Of a stretch of 64,000 bases of DNA, positions 23,209-36,249 are shown one piece after another. The translations under genes were made by a program, and so were the position numbers. The notes under the pieces were generated by a model. It did no database searches and was not told the DNA's origin. It was given only the letters and a program-made list of their open reading frames with translations. Within the stretch, counting starts at the first letter, position 1. Each line of letters begins with the position of its first letter. The stretch comes from Candidatus Uhrbacteria bacterium (lineage in GTDB: Bacteria; Patescibacteriota; Patescibacteriia; 2-12-FULL-60-25). The stretch is from the NCBI GenBank assembly GCA_016222815.1, contig JACRQE010000006.1, forward strand, positions 62,001 to 126,000, read 5' to 3'.

Positions 23209-23240
23209 TTTTGGGAGAGGAAGGAAAAAATATAAAAATT

Positions 23241-23390
23241 GTCGTCCTCCCCGGAGGGGTCGCACGGGACGTGCGAGAGCGTTAGCGAAGGACCTTCAAA
23301 ATAAAACCACCAACGGGATTGGGCTTGTGACGTCTAGCTAGGTGTTCCAACTAGAAGATTCCTCGGCGCTCCAACTTTCCTCGAGATGAC
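23241..23390 (+). repeat. Composite MITE-like repeat, copy 1
   Basis: GTCGTCCTCCCCGGAGGGGTCGCACGGGACGTGCGAGAGCGTTAGCGAAGGACCTTC arm, core, then AAGATTCCTCGGCGCTCC...CCTCGAGATGACA arm. Confidence 0.8.
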
Positions 23391-25607: not shown

Positions 25608-26676
25608 ACCACGAGTGGACGTCATCGTCCTGCTCTTCAAGAACGCGCAATTCATGCCGGCGTTGTTTTCGGGTTTTGCCGAACTTGATTATCCGCGCGA
25701 AAAAATAACTTTGCATCTGGTGGATAACGGACCGGAAGATGGATCGTTGGTCGAAGCGCGACGGCAAATCTCGGAGCTTTCGGATAAGCTGCCACAGATA
25801 GTCGTCCACGAACCGGGGAAAAATACGGGATTCACGGGCGGGAACAATCTGGTGACGCGCGAACTCCTGGCTTGTCCCGGCGAATATATTTATCTCTTGA
25901 ATGGAGATGCGACATTCGAGCCGACGGCGTTGAAAGAGGCGGTGGAAGCCGCGGAGAACGATTTGAAGATTGGCGCAGTACAATCGCTTTTGGTGCTGCA
26001 GCAGAATCCAGATGAGATAAATTCGGAAGGAAATGCGCTCCATTATCTAGGATTCGGTTATTGCCTTGGGTACCACAAGAGGCGTACGGAAGCGCCGAAG
26101 GACGTCGTGGACATCGCATATCCTTCCGGCGCCGGCGTGCTGTTGCGGAACAGCGTGTTGGAAAAGGTCGGATTATTCGACGAGGCACTGATTGCGTACC
26201 ACGAGGATTTGGATTTGGGCTGGCGTATCCGGTTGGCCGGTTACCGCGTTGTTTTGGCGCCGCGGAGCGTTGTCAGGCATTATTATGAATTCTCCCGTTC
26301 CATCTCCAAGTGGTATTTGATGGAGCGCAACCGGATGATTGTGTTGTTCAAGAATTACAAGATCGCTACGCTCGTTTGGCTTTTGCCGCAGCTCGTCGCG
26401 TCCGAAGCGGCGCTTCTCGTCTTCGCTATCGTGAAAGGCTGGTGGAGTGATAAGCTGCGCGTCTATGGTTATATGCTCAAGCCATCGACCTGGAAATATG
26501 TCGGTGAGGAGCGGCGTAAAGTGAACGGATTGCGGAAAGCCAAAGACAGAAAGATCCTGGAGCTGACCGTACCGACCATTGCTTACCAGGACGTGGAAAG
26601 CTGGCCGGTCAAGGTTTTTCTGAATCCTGTGGGCAAAGTTTTGCATTGGCTGACCAGGGTCGTGGTTTTTTGGTGA
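25591..26676 (+). CDS. Glycosyltransferase family 2 (rhamnosyltransferase-like)
   Basis: VDVIVLLFKNAQFMPALFSG, NTGFTGGNN, GLFDEALIAYHEDLDLGWRIRLAGYR; ATG at 25591 overlaps DUF2304 end. Confidence 0.87.
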   Translation: MNGKIEPRVDVIVLLFKNAQFMPALFSGFAELDYPREKITLHLVDNGPEDGSLVEARRQISELSDKLPQIVVHEPGKNTGFTGGNNLVTRELLACPGEYIYLLNGDATFEPTALKEAVEAAENDLKIGAVQSLLVLQQNPDEINSEGNALHYLGFGYCLGYHKRRTEAPKDVVDIAYPSGAGVLLRNSVLEKVGLFDEALIAYHEDLDLGWRIRLAGYRVVLAPRSVVRHYYEFSRSISKWYLMERNRMIVLFKNYKIATLVWLLPQLVASEAALLVFAIVKGWWSDKLRVYGYMLKPSTWKYVGEERRKVNGLRKAKDRKILELTVPTIAYQDVESWPVKVFLNPVGKVLHWLTRVVVFW

Positions 26677-26677
26677 T

Positions 26678-27817
26678 ATGAAAGTACTCCATCTCTCATG
26701 CGTGGCGCCGCCCCAAATTGGGGGCATCGGCAAAGTCGCAGCCCAAGAGGTTGGGCTTTTACGCGCTCGCGGTGTGGAGGCGGAGTTGGTTTCGGTTGTA
26801 GGGGCGCGGTTTCCGCGCCCAGGGCTGGGAGACCCAGCCCCTACGGAATACATCAAATTCCTGCCAACATTGTGGCAGATCGGTAACGCGTCGATGATCG
26901 CACCATGGAAGCTGTTGCCATATCTCAAGCGGGCTGACGTCGTGCATCTGCATTATCCTTTTTACGGCACTGACCTGGAGATAGACTTCTTCAAATTTTT
27001 AGGCGCCATAAAAAAGTTGGTCGTGACTTTGCATATGGACGCGGATGTCAGCGGCTGGCGCGGTGCGGTTAACCGTGTCCATCGCCACACCCTGCAGGAG
27101 CTCGTACTTCATTCGGCCGATGCGCTGCTGGTCAGTTCGCTCGATTATGCGGAGCACTCGTCGTACAAAAAATTCATCATGTCGCCGAAGATGCATGAAC
27201 TGCCGTTCGGTGTGGATGAGGAGAGGTTCGCACCAGGTGAAAGGAATCCGGCGAAGTTCGGAATACCGTCGGACGCGAAAGTCGTGACTTTCGTCGGGGG
27301 CATGGATAAGCCGCATGCTTTCAAGGGCGTGGACGTTTTGCTTAAAGCATTCAAACAGTTGCCGCAGAATACCTGGATGGTTTTGGGAGGCGAGGGCGAA
27401 TTGCGTCCGGAGTTCGAGAAGCTTGCGAATGAGCTCGGTGTCGCGGATCGCGTAAAGTTTGTGGGTCGAGTAGCGGAAAAGGATTTGCCGGACGTGTATC
27501 GAGTCGGCGATGTGTTCGCGTTCCCGTCCACCTCGGGCGCTGAAGCGTTCGGGTTGGTGGCTTTGGAGGCTCAGGCGTGCGGTGTGCCGGTCGTGGCTTC
27601 GGATTTGCCGGGTGTGCGCACCGTAGTCGAAGACCGGGTAACGGGATTGCTGACGCCGGCGGGGAACGTGGATGAATTGGCGGCGCATCTGCGTTTAATC
27701 TTGGAAAATCATGGGATGAGGGATGAGATGGGAACCGCGGCGCGCAAAAGAGTCTTGGAGAAATTCACTTGGACGAAGCATGTAGAGGGGTTGATGGAAA
27801 TTTATGAAAATATCTGA
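26678..27817 (+). CDS. Glycosyltransferase family 4, with in-frame repeat insertion
   Basis: PPQIGGIGKVAAQEV, VTFVGGMDKPHAFKGVDVLLKA, FAFPSTSGAEAFGLVALEAQACGVPVVAS; loop GARFPRPGLGDPAPT encoded by palindromic element. Confidence 0.92.
   Translation: MKVLHLSCVAPPQIGGIGKVAAQEVGLLRARGVEAELVSVVGARFPRPGLGDPAPTEYIKFLPTLWQIGNASMIAPWKLLPYLKRADVVHLHYPFYGTDLEIDFFKFLGAIKKLVVTLHMDADVSGWRGAVNRVHRHTLQELVLHSADALLVSSLDYAEHSSYKKFIMSPKMHELPFGVDEERFAPGERNPAKFGIPSDAKVVTFVGGMDKPHAFKGVDVLLKAFKQLPQNTWMVLGGEGELRPEFEKLANELGVADRVKFVGRVAEKDLPDVYRVGDVFAFPSTSGAEAFGLVALEAQACGVPVVASDLPGVRTVVEDRVTGLLTPAGNVDELAAHLRLILENHGMRDEMGTAARKRVLEKFTWTKHVEGLMEIYENI
26798..26844. repeat. TAGGGGC palindromic element inside CDS
   Basis: GTAGGGGCGCGGTTTCCGCGCCCAGGGCTGGGAGACCCAGCCCCTAC. 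Confidence 0.88.
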
Positions 27818-27821
27818 TTGT

Positions 27822-27890
27822 AAGATTCCCCGGTTGAACCGTGGAATGACAGAAAAAAATTGTCGTCCCACGGCTTGACCGGGGGACCTT
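27822..27890. repeat. Intergenic inverted-arm repeat of the GGTCC/GACGAC family
   Basis: AAGATTCCCCGGTTGAACCGTGGAATGACA-N-TGTCGTCCCACGGCTTGACCGGGGGACCTT. Confidence 0.75.
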
Positions 27891-27907
27891 ACCTAGTGAA
27901 TGTTTCT

Positions 27908-29083
27908 ATGAAAATCGCTGTCCTGACCAATGCTTATCCTCCGAAAGCCCAGGGCGGGGCTGGGCGGATTGCTTTTGAGTATACGAAGATACTCGAGGGT
28001 CTTGGGCATGAAGTGAAAGTTTGGGGCGCGGATGAAGAATTTTTTGAGTTGGGAAAGAAGTCGGCGTTGGCGCGGTTGTTTTTCCATCTTAAAGATTTAG
28101 GGGCGAAGAAGGATATTGTCGAGGATATGGCTACGTGGGAGCCGGAGGTTCTGTTTACGCATAATTTGACGGGGTGCGGATTTGGGACGGCGAGTTACTT
28201 AAAAAGGTCCTTCGACTCCGGCCCGCCAGACGGGCCTCGTTCAGGACGACGGTTGAAGTGGTTTCATGTTTTGCATGATGTCCAGCTACTCGAACCTTCG
28301 GGGCAGATCGTCTATGGCGAAAGCTTTGGTATTTTTAGGAAAGTTTGGCGGTGGAAATGGGCGTGGTTGAGGAAGATGAGTTTAGGCGAGCCAGATGTCG
28401 TGATTTCTCCGACAAAGTGGCTGATGGAACAGCATGAGAAGTATGGTTTCTTTAAGAGGTCGAAGAAGGTCGTGGTGCCGAATCCGGTTCGTCGTTCCGG
28501 AGATCTCTCGACGGAGTCTATCCCGCACTCAGATGCGGGACTCGAGACGACAAGAGATGAGAAACAGATACTTTTCGTCGGCCGATTGGATAGCGATAAG
28601 GGGATTGATTTATTACTGGAGGCTTGGCCGGAGCTAAAGAAGATCTCCGAGAGCCTGGTCGTCGTCGGCGGTGGGTTGCGGTTGGAGGATTTTAAAAAAC
28701 AATTCCCGGAAGTCGAATTCAAGGGAGAGCTCGCGTCCGAAGAAGTCCTGAAAACCATGGCGCAGAGCGGTGTGCTTGTCGTCCCGTCACTTGTCATGGA
28801 AAACCAGCCTACGGTCATCCTGGAGGGCTTGGCGTGCGGCTGTAAGGTCGTGGCCTCTGACGTCGGAGGGGTCAGAGAGACGTTGGGGGAGGCGGGATGG
28901 ATTTTTAAACCGGGGTCGTCGGACGACCTGGTTAGAGCGGTGAGGGAGGCGATGGTTGGTAGGGGCGACGCATGCGTCGCCCAGGGCAAGGCGTGCCTTG
29001 CCCCTACGCAGACAATTTTGAAACGTCACGATCCCGGAATCGTGGCCGGTGTCCTCGCGGGTTTGCTCAAATCGAATTTGTAG
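27908..29083 (+). CDS. Glycosyltransferase family 4 with three repeat-derived segments
   Basis: MKIAVLTNAYPPKAQGGAGRIAFEY, ILFVGRLDSDKGIDLLLEAWPEL, NQPTVILEGLACGCKVVASDVGG; start moved from TTG 27860 to ATG 27908. Confidence 0.88.
   Translation: MKIAVLTNAYPPKAQGGAGRIAFEYTKILEGLGHEVKVWGADEEFFELGKKSALARLFFHLKDLGAKKDIVEDMATWEPEVLFTHNLTGCGFGTASYLKRSFDSGPPDGPRSGRRLKWFHVLHDVQLLEPSGQIVYGESFGIFRKVWRWKWAWLRKMSLGEPDVVISPTKWLMEQHEKYGFFKRSKKVVVPNPVRRSGDLSTESIPHSDAGLETTRDEKQILFVGRLDSDKGIDLLLEAWPELKKISESLVVVGGGLRLEDFKKQFPEVEFKGELASEEVLKTMAQSGVLVVPSLVMENQPTVILEGLACGCKVVASDVGGVRETLGEAGWIFKPGSSDDLVRAVREAMVGRGDACVAQGKACLAPTQTILKRHDPGIVAGVLAGLLKSNL
28204..28250. repeat. AAGGTCCTTCG...AGGACGAC palindromic repeat inside CDS
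   Basis: AAGGTCCTTCGACTCCGGCCCGCCAGACGGGCCTCGTTCAGGACGAC. Confidence 0.8.
28502..28554. repeat. GATCTCTCGAC...CTCGAGACGACAAG palindromic repeat inside CDS
   Basis: GATCTCTCGACGGAGTCTATCCCGCACTCAGATGCGGGACTCGAGACGACAAG. Confidence 0.7.
28959..29007. repeat. TAGGGGC palindromic element inside CDS
   Basis: GTAGGGGCGACGCATGCGTCGCCCAGGGCAAGGCGTGCCTTGCCCCTAC. Confidence 0.88.
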
Positions 29084-31182
29084 ACTTTAAGGGAGTGGCC
29101 TGGGTTTTTTGTGGTGTCGCCGATGGTCCATTCGCCGTCTGCGATGATCGAGAGAGTCTCGGCCGTGTTTATTGCGTTCCACCAATAATCGTTCAGGACG
29201 ACGTAAACAAGTTTCGTGCCGCCAAGCGCACCGGCGTCCGAGACGGTGTCGCGCGTGGGTTCTTTGTAGGTCATGCGCAGGTACAGGTCGTAGAGCGGAC
29301 CGCTGGTGGGGATGGGATAGTAGAAAATTTGGTCGTGATAACGCTTGAAACCGAATTGGACCACGGCTGCGGCAGATACGCTTTGGTTGGCCAGGACCGT
29401 GTAGGGTTGTCGTTCGGCATCGCGGTCGATGGTGCGCACGGCTTCGAGATCAGCTTGGCCCACGCTCCAACCCCGGCCTGTGACCAAGGCGTCGTTGCGC
29501 GGCAGGGCGTCGTAGGTCAGGGCGGCAGAAGCGGCGAGCAATAACGTCAGCAAGGCTGTGCCCAAGAGCGGCGGACCGCGTCTTACGCGTCCAAGGATTT
29601 TTGATAACGCAGGCAAAGCGGCGGCGGCCAGGAGCATGTTGGCCATGATCCACAAACGGTCAGCGTAGCTCGAGCGTTCGTATTCGATGAGGAAAGCGAA
29701 TTCGCCCGTGGCTTTGAGCACGGTCGAAGCCAGGATGAAAAGGAAAGCCGAAACCATGAGCAGGATGGCGTGGCCGCGTTCGTCATCCTTGGCCGCGAAG
29801 ACCGAGCCCACGGAGGCCAGGAGCAGGATGGCGGAAACGGAATGCGCGATGAGCGATGACCACGACGGCCAGAGCGCGAAGTGGTTGCCGATCCAGGGCA
29901 GGAGATTTTTGCCGAGCTCCAACCACGGCTGGGAGTTGAACAAGGCGTTCAAGTCCCAGTTGATCTGCGTGCCGCCCCTCAATCCCAGGACATAGAACAT
30001 GGCTGGGACGGCGCAGGCCGAACCAACGACTGTGAGCCAGGCTAAGATTTGCCGCGTGCGGAACAAGCGCATGTTCTTCTTGGGCCAGAACGAGAGGGCA
30101 AGCACGACCAGGAAGAACGGGACGCCGGCCAGCGGATGTACGGCTACGCTCCAGGCGGCGAGGATGATGCCAGGGATAGGTGAAACGTAGCCGTCAAAAC
30201 GACCGCGCACCAGGATAACGGCGGCGAGGCCGAGGAGATAGGCGAAGGATTGGGGCGTGGTGGCGATGAAGGGCGCGAGCGGCAAGAGGAGCAGGGTGGC
30301 AGGCAACAGGACGGCGTCGGATTTCCGGCGGCCGAGATAGACGGCCAAGGCCAAAAGAATGGCGGCGCCGAAGGGCACGAGCCAGCGGTCAACCTGGTCC
30401 AGAGGCAGGTCCAAAAGGCGGTGGAGCCAGGTGGTGAATACATATTGGCCCATGTAGTACAGCGGTTTGGGCGAGAGCGTGCCGGTCTCGAGGATGATTT
30501 TTTCTGACGCGATGTGCAAAAATCCGTCAAAGCCGAAACCGATGCGATAGACCAAAGGCACGATGGCCGTGGTGGCGAATATCGCGAGCGCAGTCTGGAT
30601 GGCGGTGAGCGCGCGGCTTTTGACGACCCAGGCCGAAACGATCACGGCCAACCAACCCAGGGCCACGGCTAACAGCGTCCCCGGTGGGAGCAACGGCCAC
30701 GGGGTGCGGATGGAGTCGGATGTCGAGGCTGATGAAGCGCCCTGGAGCACGAAGTACAAGGCAGCGGATGAGCAGGCCAAGAGTAGGATGCCGCGCAAGA
30801 TGCGCTTGGAGTCGAAGATGAGCGGTTCGGGACCTTCGTCATCCTGCGGTTCGGGCATGAAAGCGGCGAGGGTGTGGCAAATGCCCATGGCCGCGATCAT
30901 GGTCCAGATGTCGGTTTCGATGCCGAGCGTGCCGTTCAGGTAGAACCAGGCGGTCTGGACCAAAGCTACGACCGTGGCATAGGTGATTAGGCCAAGGGCC
31001 GTGCCTGACATCCAGCGGGATTTGGGACAAAAGCGCTTGCCCAGGATGTAGGCCGGGAACAAGACGGCAAAGAAGGTCAGGAATTGGGCCAGGATGACGA
31101 CCGGCAAGGGGATTATTTTGGTAATCGTAAAAATACCGGTGATGACCAGGCCGGCCAGCAGGTCCTTGAGTTTTTCGTCCAT
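29026..31182 (-). CDS. Large polytopic membrane protein, likely GT-C-type glycosyltransferase
   Basis: 718 aa with many hydrophobic segments, beside glycosyltransferase genes. Confidence 0.6.
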   Translation of the reverse strand: MDEKLKDLLAGLVITGIFTITKIIPLPVVILAQFLTFFAVLFPAYILGKRFCPKSRWMSGTALGLITYATVVALVQTAWFYLNGTLGIETDIWTMIAAMGICHTLAAFMPEPQDDEGPEPLIFDSKRILRGILLLACSSAALYFVLQGASSASTSDSIRTPWPLLPPGTLLAVALGWLAVIVSAWVVKSRALTAIQTALAIFATTAIVPLVYRIGFGFDGFLHIASEKIILETGTLSPKPLYYMGQYVFTTWLHRLLDLPLDQVDRWLVPFGAAILLALAVYLGRRKSDAVLLPATLLLLPLAPFIATTPQSFAYLLGLAAVILVRGRFDGYVSPIPGIILAAWSVAVHPLAGVPFFLVVLALSFWPKKNMRLFRTRQILAWLTVVGSACAVPAMFYVLGLRGGTQINWDLNALFNSQPWLELGKNLLPWIGNHFALWPSWSSLIAHSVSAILLLASVGSVFAAKDDERGHAILLMVSAFLFILASTVLKATGEFAFLIEYERSSYADRLWIMANMLLAAAALPALSKILGRVRRGPPLLGTALLTLLLAASAALTYDALPRNDALVTGRGWSVGQADLEAVRTIDRDAERQPYTVLANQSVSAAAVVQFGFKRYHDQIFYYPIPTSGPLYDLYLRMTYKEPTRDTVSDAGALGGTKLVYVVLNDYWWNAINTAETLSIIADGEWTIGDTTKNPGHSLKVYKFDLSKPARTPATIPGS

Positions 31183-31830: not shown

Positions 31831-31845
31831 AAATAAAAGCAAACT

Positions 31846-32006
31846 GTCGTCCTCCCCGGAGGGGTCGCACGGGACGTGCGAGAGCGAAGCGAAGGACCTT
31901 CTGATTAGTACACCTAGCGAGACGCCCGCATCCCGTGGGCGGTTTTAATTTGAAGGTCCTTCGCTTCGCTCTCCCTCCTCCGTCGGGACCCTTGCGGGAG
32001 GACGAC
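31846..32006 (-). repeat. Composite MITE-like repeat, copy 2 (inverted relative to copy 1)
   Basis: GTCGTCC...GGACCTTC arms on both ends in inverted orientation; core reverse complement aligns with copy 1 core. Confidence 0.85.
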
Positions 32007-35030: not shown

Positions 35031-36185
35031 ATGAGAAAAATCTTTTCTGGTCTGCTCATGGCGGTCGGTTTGTTGGGGTTTGCGGTTCCGTCTTATGCGG
35101 CGACGTTCGTCACGGGCGAGGAAGTCACTCTGCCCAAGAATGAGGTCGTGGTTGACGACGTTTATGCTTTTGGCCCTAGTCCGGTCATTGCCAGCGATAT
35201 CCAGGGTGATCTGATCACGGCTGGCGGGAACGTGATGATCACGGGAAATGTGTCGCAGGACGTGGACGCGGCGGGCGGTACGATCAATATCCTGGGGTCT
35301 GTGGGCGATGACCTGCGGGTCGCGGGCGGTAACGTGACGATTCACGGCATTGTCAACGGCGATTTGCTGGTGGCGGGCGGGATGGTCCAGCTATTGCCGG
35401 GCGCGGTGATTAAAGGTTCGGTATATGGCGCAGGCGGCATGGTGACGCTCGACGGTGACGTGGAAGGCGGCATCAAACTTTTCGCCGGCACAGCCAACCT
35501 GAACGGCAGCGTGCTCGGGCCTGTGGACGTGACGGCTGACGAAAAAGTGAATTTCGGCAAGATGGCCAAGTTCGCCCAGGGCGTGACGTATGCTTCGCCG
35601 AGCGTGAGCGATGAACAAACCGGAGCGTCTTTCGCGGCCGGGGTCCAACACAAACAGATCGAAAGCCGGGAAGCGGCGCGCGAGGCCATGAAGCCGGATT
35701 GGGGCAGGATGTTTGCCGCTGGGTTCATGTGGTTCCTGGTGCGTACAGGCGCAATGCTCCTGGCCGCGCTCTTGGCGCTCAAATTCATGCGCCGCGGCCT
35801 GGAGGATCTGACCATCAAGACCAGCGAGAACTTCGGCAGCCGTCTGCTCTGGGGTTTTGCTGTCCTGATCGCGGCGCCGATCGCGGGTATCGTGCTCTTT
35901 GTGAGCGTGTTCGGTTCACTTTTGGGAGCGTTGCTCTTCGCGGTCTACTCGCTGCTCATCGTGGTAGCCAAAATCGCGGCTGGTCCGTTGGTCGCGGTGT
36001 TGCTCATGAAACTTTTCAAAGGACAAAAGAAACCGGCACTGGATTGGGTCTGGGTGCTGCTGGGCGTGGTTGTCTATCAACTCTTGTGGGCCATCCCGGT
36101 CATCGGCTGGTTCGCGGCGGCACTCGTCTTCCTGGCCATATTCGGCTCAATCGTGATGGAAGCAAAGGAGAGGGTGAAGATTTAA
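35031..36185 (+). CDS. Bactofilin-like polymer-forming domain plus C-terminal TM helices
   Basis: Signal peptide; repeated DLITAGGNVMITGNVSQDVDAAGGTINILGSVGDDLRVAGGNVTIHG; hydrophobic C-terminal half. Confidence 0.75.
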   Translation: MRKIFSGLLMAVGLLGFAVPSYAATFVTGEEVTLPKNEVVVDDVYAFGPSPVIASDIQGDLITAGGNVMITGNVSQDVDAAGGTINILGSVGDDLRVAGGNVTIHGIVNGDLLVAGGMVQLLPGAVIKGSVYGAGGMVTLDGDVEGGIKLFAGTANLNGSVLGPVDVTADEKVNFGKMAKFAQGVTYASPSVSDEQTGASFAAGVQHKQIESREAAREAMKPDWGRMFAAGFMWFLVRTGAMLLAALLALKFMRRGLEDLTIKTSENFGSRLLWGFAVLIAAPIAGIVLFVSVFGSLLGALLFAVYSLLIVVAKIAAGPLVAVLLMKLFKGQKKPALDWVWVLLGVVVYQLLWAIPVIGWFAAALVFLAIFGSIVMEAKERVKI

Positions 36186-36186
36186 G

Positions 36187-36213
36187 AGACCTCTCGACTG
36201 CGCTCGAGATGAC
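36187..36213. repeat. Short CTCTCGAC...CTCGAGATGACA repeat
   Basis: GACCTCTCGACTGCGCTCGAGATGACA. Confidence 0.55.
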
Positions 36214-36249
36214 AAAGAGGCTGCCCGAATCGGGCAGTCTCTTTACTTT
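36214..36249 (+). terminator. Intrinsic terminator
   Basis: AAAGAGGCTGCCCGAATCGGGCAGTCTCTTTACTTT. Confidence 0.7.

Follow-up and report, generated by a model that had tools for sequence, protein, structure and literature searches.

How does a single glycosyltransferase gene come to carry three palindromic repeats inside its reading frame? The gene lies in the window, the 64,000-nt stretch of Candidatus Uhrbacteria DNA analysed here (contig C2, positions 62001-126000; genome of 1.30 Mb in 8 contigs, 98% complete). An earlier note on this DNA had taken three segments of the gene for repeat-derived peptide insertions at surface loops. We find that they are very probably short non-autonomous palindromes of the REP kind, transposed into coding sequence, of which those in frame and in permissive loops survived. 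The features are listed in Table 1.

Table 1. Features at the glycosyltransferase locus and related elements; positions are those of the window unless a contig is named, and G000 is the genome of the window
Feature	Position	Strand	Evidence
Upstream GT4 glycosyltransferase gene, also interrupted	26678..27817	+	Pfam; homologues without insert
In-frame GTAG double-foot REP dimer in upstream GT4, peptide VGARFPRPGLGDPAPT	26798..26844	.	hairpins z -7.0
Inverted pair of CGTC/TGTC-tagged-like palindromes, intergenic between the two glycosyltransferase genes	27822..27893	.	fold z -3.7
GT4-type (GT-B fold) glycosyltransferase gene with three inserts	27908..29083	+	ORF, Pfam, AlphaFold, Foldseek
Site 1: CGTC-tagged-like palindrome TTAAAAAGGTCCTTCGACTCC..TTCAGGACGACGG, peptide (LK)RSFDSGPPDGPRSGRR	28199..28252	+	genome copies, loop length
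Site 2: palindrome GAGATCTCTCGAC..CTCGAGACGACAAGAG, interdomain linker, peptide GDLSTESIPHSDAGLETTR	28500..28556	+	ends match 36185-36219
Site 3: GTAG double-foot REP dimer (REPIN-like), peptide GRGDACVAQGKACLAPT	28959..29007	.	exact dimer pattern, fold
Short intergenic palindrome with both site-2 ends	36185..36219	.	sequence match to ends
REP-associated tyrosine transposase (RAYT) ORF	C6:170944-171369 (locus L120, G000 C6:170944-171452)		NF047646

The gene had been called correctly, both in its type and in its coordinates. Its frame opens with ATG at 27908 and encodes 391 aa, and the product matches the Pfam profiles Glyco_trans_1_4 (E 1.2e-27) and Glyco_transf_4 (E 8.6e-10). The GT4 enzymes of the GT-B fold have two Rossmann-like domains, the Glycos_transf_1 and Glyco_transf_4 profiles and an E-x7-E motif. 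Here the motif is E298 and E306, invariant across the GT4 alignment, and the AlphaFold model of the 391-aa protein (mean pLDDT 90.8) has glycogen synthase, PimA and BshA as its top Foldseek matches in the PDB (E ~1e-16). The profiles, the fold search and the motif all assign the protein to this family.

The frame stays open with conserved motifs on both sides of the inserts, as had been noted, and the alignment with homologues bears this out. All 36 residues that are invariant in a 35-sequence alignment are retained. Compared with the closest homologue (57-59% identical, genome G002), dN is 0.31 and dS about 2.2, the latter near saturation; by this codon comparison, the gene is under purifying selection. 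The named relatives in which this protein was found belong to Candidatus Uhrbacteria or to other Patescibacteria.

The closest homologue is without all three inserts. All the relatives are too distant for an exact empty site, with the ends of the element, its target and any duplication, to be read from the DNA. We compared the loop lengths in 30 sequences from the genus, the family and the class, most of which have short loops at the insert positions. The site-1 loop is 22 aa in the window protein and 9 aa in 25 of the 30 homologues, and the site-2 loop is 27 aa against a median of 17 aa. The site-3 loop is 27 aa against a median of 19.5, an excess of only about 7 aa, so part of the original loop has been replaced or lost.

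The earlier placement of the inserts in loops agrees with the AlphaFold model, in which all three are predicted to be so located. Site 1 would lie in a loop bounded by helix 94-103 and strand 117-121, site 2 in the interdomain linker and site 3 in a C-terminal loop. Only residues 201-212 of site 2 and 354-357 of site 3 have pLDDT below 50 in the whole model.

Site 3 reads GTAGGGGCGACGCATGCGTCGCCC-A-GGGCAAGGCGTGCCTTGCCCCTAC and folds into an inverted pair of 8-bp hairpins whose GTAG/CTAC feet stay unpaired (z -4.5). It and the 26798-26844 element in the upstream gene both have the terminal GTAG unpaired and 8-bp stems, within the 5-13 bp of the GTAG-tagged REPs, with 3-4 nt loops in a head-to-head arrangement. 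The copies are multiple, dispersed and mainly intergenic, and are mostly 46-50 nt long. By sequence and predicted fold, both elements are classical GTAG-tagged REP dimers.

The pattern GTAGGGGC-N16..46-GCCCCTAC finds 20 exact dimers in the genome including site 3, while the reversed control pattern finds none. They are spread over 6 contigs, and 6 are intragenic by our reading. A BLAST search with the site-3 type gave 13 other near-full-length matches, at places partly shared with the exact dimers. Only 4 of the 20 dimers are a multiple of three nucleotides long, and 17 of the 20 are open in 4 of the 6 frames. Hence, many insertions are readable once the frame is kept.

At least 5 of the 20 exact dimers provide the TAG that terminates an adjacent gene. 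At contig positions C8:74947, C1:151404, C6:101976 and C8:2255 (loci L098, L093, L039 and L041, respectively), the TAG of the dimer is the stop of the upstream frame, and one of the frames so stopped is a class II aminoacyl-tRNA-synthetase-like gene. Elsewhere, three dimers with near-identical flanks lie within 2.5 kb (C6:110144, 110859 and 112540; L035), and these look as if units containing the dimer had been duplicated.

Site 1 has 6 other near-full-length copies in the genome (BLAST, E<=4e-6), and a relaxed pattern gives 29 matches genome-wide and none with the control. It was rightly taken for a repeat, although the extent given earlier, 28204-28250, was slightly too narrow. Two 46-nt CGTC-like palindrome copies, 98% identical to each other, lie at 23236-23281 and 31841-31886 of the window, one intergenic and the other close to where a 578-aa open frame begins.

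Full-length site 2 has no other genomic copy by BLAST at E<=1. Its ends GAGATCTCTCGAC and CTCGAGACGACAAGAG are matched in the short palindrome at 36185-36219 and in a third short copy, with none in the control. The core of about 28 nt between the ends is unique in the genome, so the repeat membership rests on the ends. Judged from their copies, sites 1 and 3 are solid repeats and site 2 is a probable one. Thus, the earlier claim that the segments recur between genes holds for sites 1 and 3 and, at site 2, for the ends and not for the whole element.

The minus strands of site 1, CCGTCGTCCTGAACG, and of site 2, TTGTCGTCTCGAG, carry the CGTC/TGTC foot. They share GTCGTC near one end with the CGTC-tagged REPs, a group to which RPE-4 and RPE-6 of R. 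conorii belong (Di Nocera, De Gregorio and Rocco 2013, PMC3733652). The described CGTC families have a stem of 8-9 bp from AT, a loop of 4-5 nt and a CCA-like tail (PMC3733652), whereas sites 1 and 2 are longer composite hairpins of 54-57 nt. We therefore call both CGTC-like and keep them out of the CGTC-tagged family. The intergenic pair at 27822-27893 is of a similar kind, and none of 200 shuffles folded equally well.

The Rfam search matched no family across 26600-29300 at E<=1. A window-wide repeat finder mostly picked up coding paralogues and did not detect the diverged palindromes.

The genome has a candidate mover of the GTAG dimers. The RAYT ORF matches NCBIfam NF047646 with E 8.7e-15 and 58 bits, below the curated cut-off of 80, and contains the motifs MPNHFH and WQRNYHERI. 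One GTAG dimer lies in frame between the two motifs and a second supplies the TAG stop, so this RAYT both contains and is flanked by the same REP. The earlier note had framed the inserts after the Rickettsia palindromic elements; site 3 belongs instead to the GTAG-tagged REP dimers, for which the genome has its own RAYT. The Rickettsia elements are alike in being palindromic repeats in frame within protein genes; they are of another phylum, and no relation in sequence is evident.

Within the genus, the window genome and G003 have both a RAYT and GTAG dimers, and G001 and G002 have neither. A GTAG dimer lies inside a RAYT match in G003 and G008 and within 100 bp of one in G006. Over 38 genomes, the co-occurrence of the RAYT and the GTAG dimers is 7/9 versus 12/29 (one-sided Fisher p 0.06) and is only suggestive. 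The present ORF and L121 of G003 bear their own GTAG dimer in frame. In many relatives, the RAYT matches are split at the same profile position, about 63-72, which suggests that a RAYT bearing its own in-frame REP dimer is a habit across Patescibacteria.

Another source considered was the IS200-type fragments at contig ends, the only PF01797 matches in the same genome. We rejected it, since the hairpin at their ends is IS200-like and the GTAG palindrome is missing. These Y1 transposase fragments occupy the first 150 bases at four contig ends (L031-L034 on C7, C1, C8 and C3), and two of them have near-identical 3′ ends, so that the assembly breaks there are probably due to a multicopy IS200-like element.

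The gene is not an isolated case. Three inserts from two families in one gene had been noted; at least 10 other genes of the genome carry such elements. The dimer at 26798-26844 was absent from the earlier list of repeat insertions, and homologues of the upstream GT4 (49-62.5% identical) are without it. GTAG dimers also lie inside SMC (GRGEVASPQGGDTPPLQ), the guanylate kinase Gmk (VGARFPRPGGVTPPLR), a third GT4 and the RAYT, so that three GT4 genes of the genome carry them. The Gmk insert falls in a gap when aligned to a solved kinase.

Degenerate GTAG dimers lie inside LeuRS and DnaG, the latter after the DnaB-binding domain. An NTP transferase gene has one single REP, and CGTC-like elements are inside EpmA, Elp3 and an HI0933-like flavoprotein. 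The count is a minimum, drawn from the stretches around genome matches. If about 14 intragenic elements were distributed uniformly across about 1200 genes, the probability that any gene holds three would be, by a rough estimate, some 2.5 in 10,000. Tolerance thus clearly differs between genes.

The same loops are occupied in relatives. In the site-1 loop, the element of G001 is of the window's family, and the sequences of G003, G025, G006 and L084 are different ones. The site-2 loop is occupied in G001 and G003 by long inserts that contain an ATTCCCG..CGGGAATGAC palindrome (peptide DSRLHGND) and in G008 and G020 by short versions. This repeat fits the CGTC layout with a GTCATTCCCG stem on the minus strand (PMC3733652). 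On a tree of 34 sequences built without the loop columns, the state with or without an insert switches at least 5 times for site 1 and 6-8 times for site 2.

The ATTCCCG..CGGGAATGAC repeat has 10, 14, 8 and 9 genomic copies in G001, G003, G008 and G020, respectively, and no match to the pattern in the genomes of G000, G002, G010 and G013. The carriage in the loop tracks the presence in the genome, 4/4 versus 0/4 tested, so the local repeat pool predicts what the loop contains. In addition, L084, L061 and L069 have direct repeats or other palindromes in the site-1 and other GT4 loops (KSKVKSQKFVIPTEAEGSLRN, two CSPLRGEH copies and VRPSSRAHVEGSS). The long loops of L061 and L084 hold direct or AT-rich repeats; hence not every long loop is a REP and other repeat kinds expand loops too.

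Repeated filling of the loops, and dimers in three GT4 genes, would also be expected if the peptides were kept for a function such as membrane attachment, partner binding or acceptor choice. However, the sequences in one loop are unrelated between lineages, two of the inserts are predicted to be disordered at low confidence and the same elements occur in unrelated enzymes. A selected function therefore seems improbable to us.

The repeated hits at identical positions could instead reflect a target hot spot in the DNA, rather than the tolerance of the protein loop, and the REP-type transposases are indeed sequence-specific on single-stranded DNA (PMC6006769). Against this, different element families occupy the same loops and the flanking DNA has diverged between species. 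We regard a hot spot at the DNA level as unlikely.

Could these be ordinary hypervariable loops with other indels, resembling the intergenic repeats by chance or by GC-rich low complexity? Site 2 is without a full-length partner, and some homologues, e.g. L067, have long loops without a clear REP. This explanation is nevertheless already contradicted for site 1 by its six near-full-length copies and for site 3 by its being one of 20 copies of the same form with an empty reversed control, and the ATTCCCG repeat in the loops follows the genomes. Overall, we give it very little probability.

A decaying or dispensable pseudogene gathering repeats without counter-selection, as three inserts in a single gene and the inserts in the neighbouring and third GT4 genes might suggest, is scarcely credible and was rejected, because the frame is open throughout, the invariant residues are kept, dN is far below dS, the modelled GT-B fold is intact and the normally essential guanylate kinase, LeuRS, DnaG and SMC also bear inserts.

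The reading that repeats supplied in-frame peptides, already made in the earlier note, is upheld by the homologues with empty sites, the recurrence of the DNA in the genome and the AlphaFold model. The survivors of REP transposition would be those copies that left the frame open and landed where loops tolerate extra residues. The RAYT of the same genome most likely moved the GTAG dimer to site 3. For the CGTC-like sequences at sites 1 and 2, the mover would be an agent other than the RAYT; for CGTC REPs, Di Nocera et al. found no transposase either (PMC3733652).

The two loops that hold sites 1 and 2 (helix 94-103 to strand 117-121, and the interdomain linker) are probably permissive hot spots, taking up whatever repeat is active in each lineage. 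The insert peptides are presumably translated and mostly neutral.

Intragenic REPs are already known in other phyla and in RAYT genes. GTAG REPs have in-frame copies in unrelated genes including replication genes, two REPs per gene were reported in R. conorii uvrB and in O. terrae and Thioalkalivibrio uvrA, two Xanthomonas recB genes have different REPs at nearly the same position, and GTAG as a source of TAG stop codons has been published (PMC3733652). Those GTAG REPs and the present dimers have in common the unpaired GTAG foot, the short GC-rich stems, the head-to-head arrangement and the TAG stops. Unlike those cases, here three inserts of at least two families are in one gene and the loops are reused family-wide by different repeats; the phyla listed in that study do not include Patescibacteria.

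The TnpA_REP/RAYT subclass 2.4 has REPs whose opposite ends are GTAG and CTAC and which often sit in frame within the transposase gene (Quentin et al. 2018, PMC6006769). The present RAYT with an in-frame GTAG/CTAC double-foot REP has this arrangement; it scores below the NCBIfam cut-off and is likened to the subclass by its arrangement. The REPINs (Bertels and Rainey 2011, PMC3116915) are alike in the unit of an inverted REP doublet, the single-strand hairpins and the associated RAYT, but they were analysed extragenically and have hundreds of copies, in contrast to about 20 dimers here.

In the mostly open-access literature searched, we found no report of REPs in Patescibacteria or in the Candidate Phyla Radiation. 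The recurrent reuse of the same loops in Patescibacteria, depending on the repeat pool, appears unreported. The present case extends in-frame REP insertion to this phylum, in small genomes and in core genes such as those of guanylate kinase, LeuRS, DnaG and SMC. Such repeat-coded peptides are to be expected in Patescibacteria proteins, both in annotation and in structure modelling.

The pattern of the same loop with different repeats offers a natural test of which loops can accommodate random peptides, and of whether repeats give rise to new protein sequence. We tentatively raise the further possibility, itself rather doubtful, that loops of Candidatus Uhrbacteria enzymes are standing landing pads, where the palindrome pool of each lineage repeatedly writes in-frame peptides. 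If so, mobile palindromes would be a continuing source of loop diversity in the glycosyltransferases and the core enzymes of bacteria with reduced genomes.
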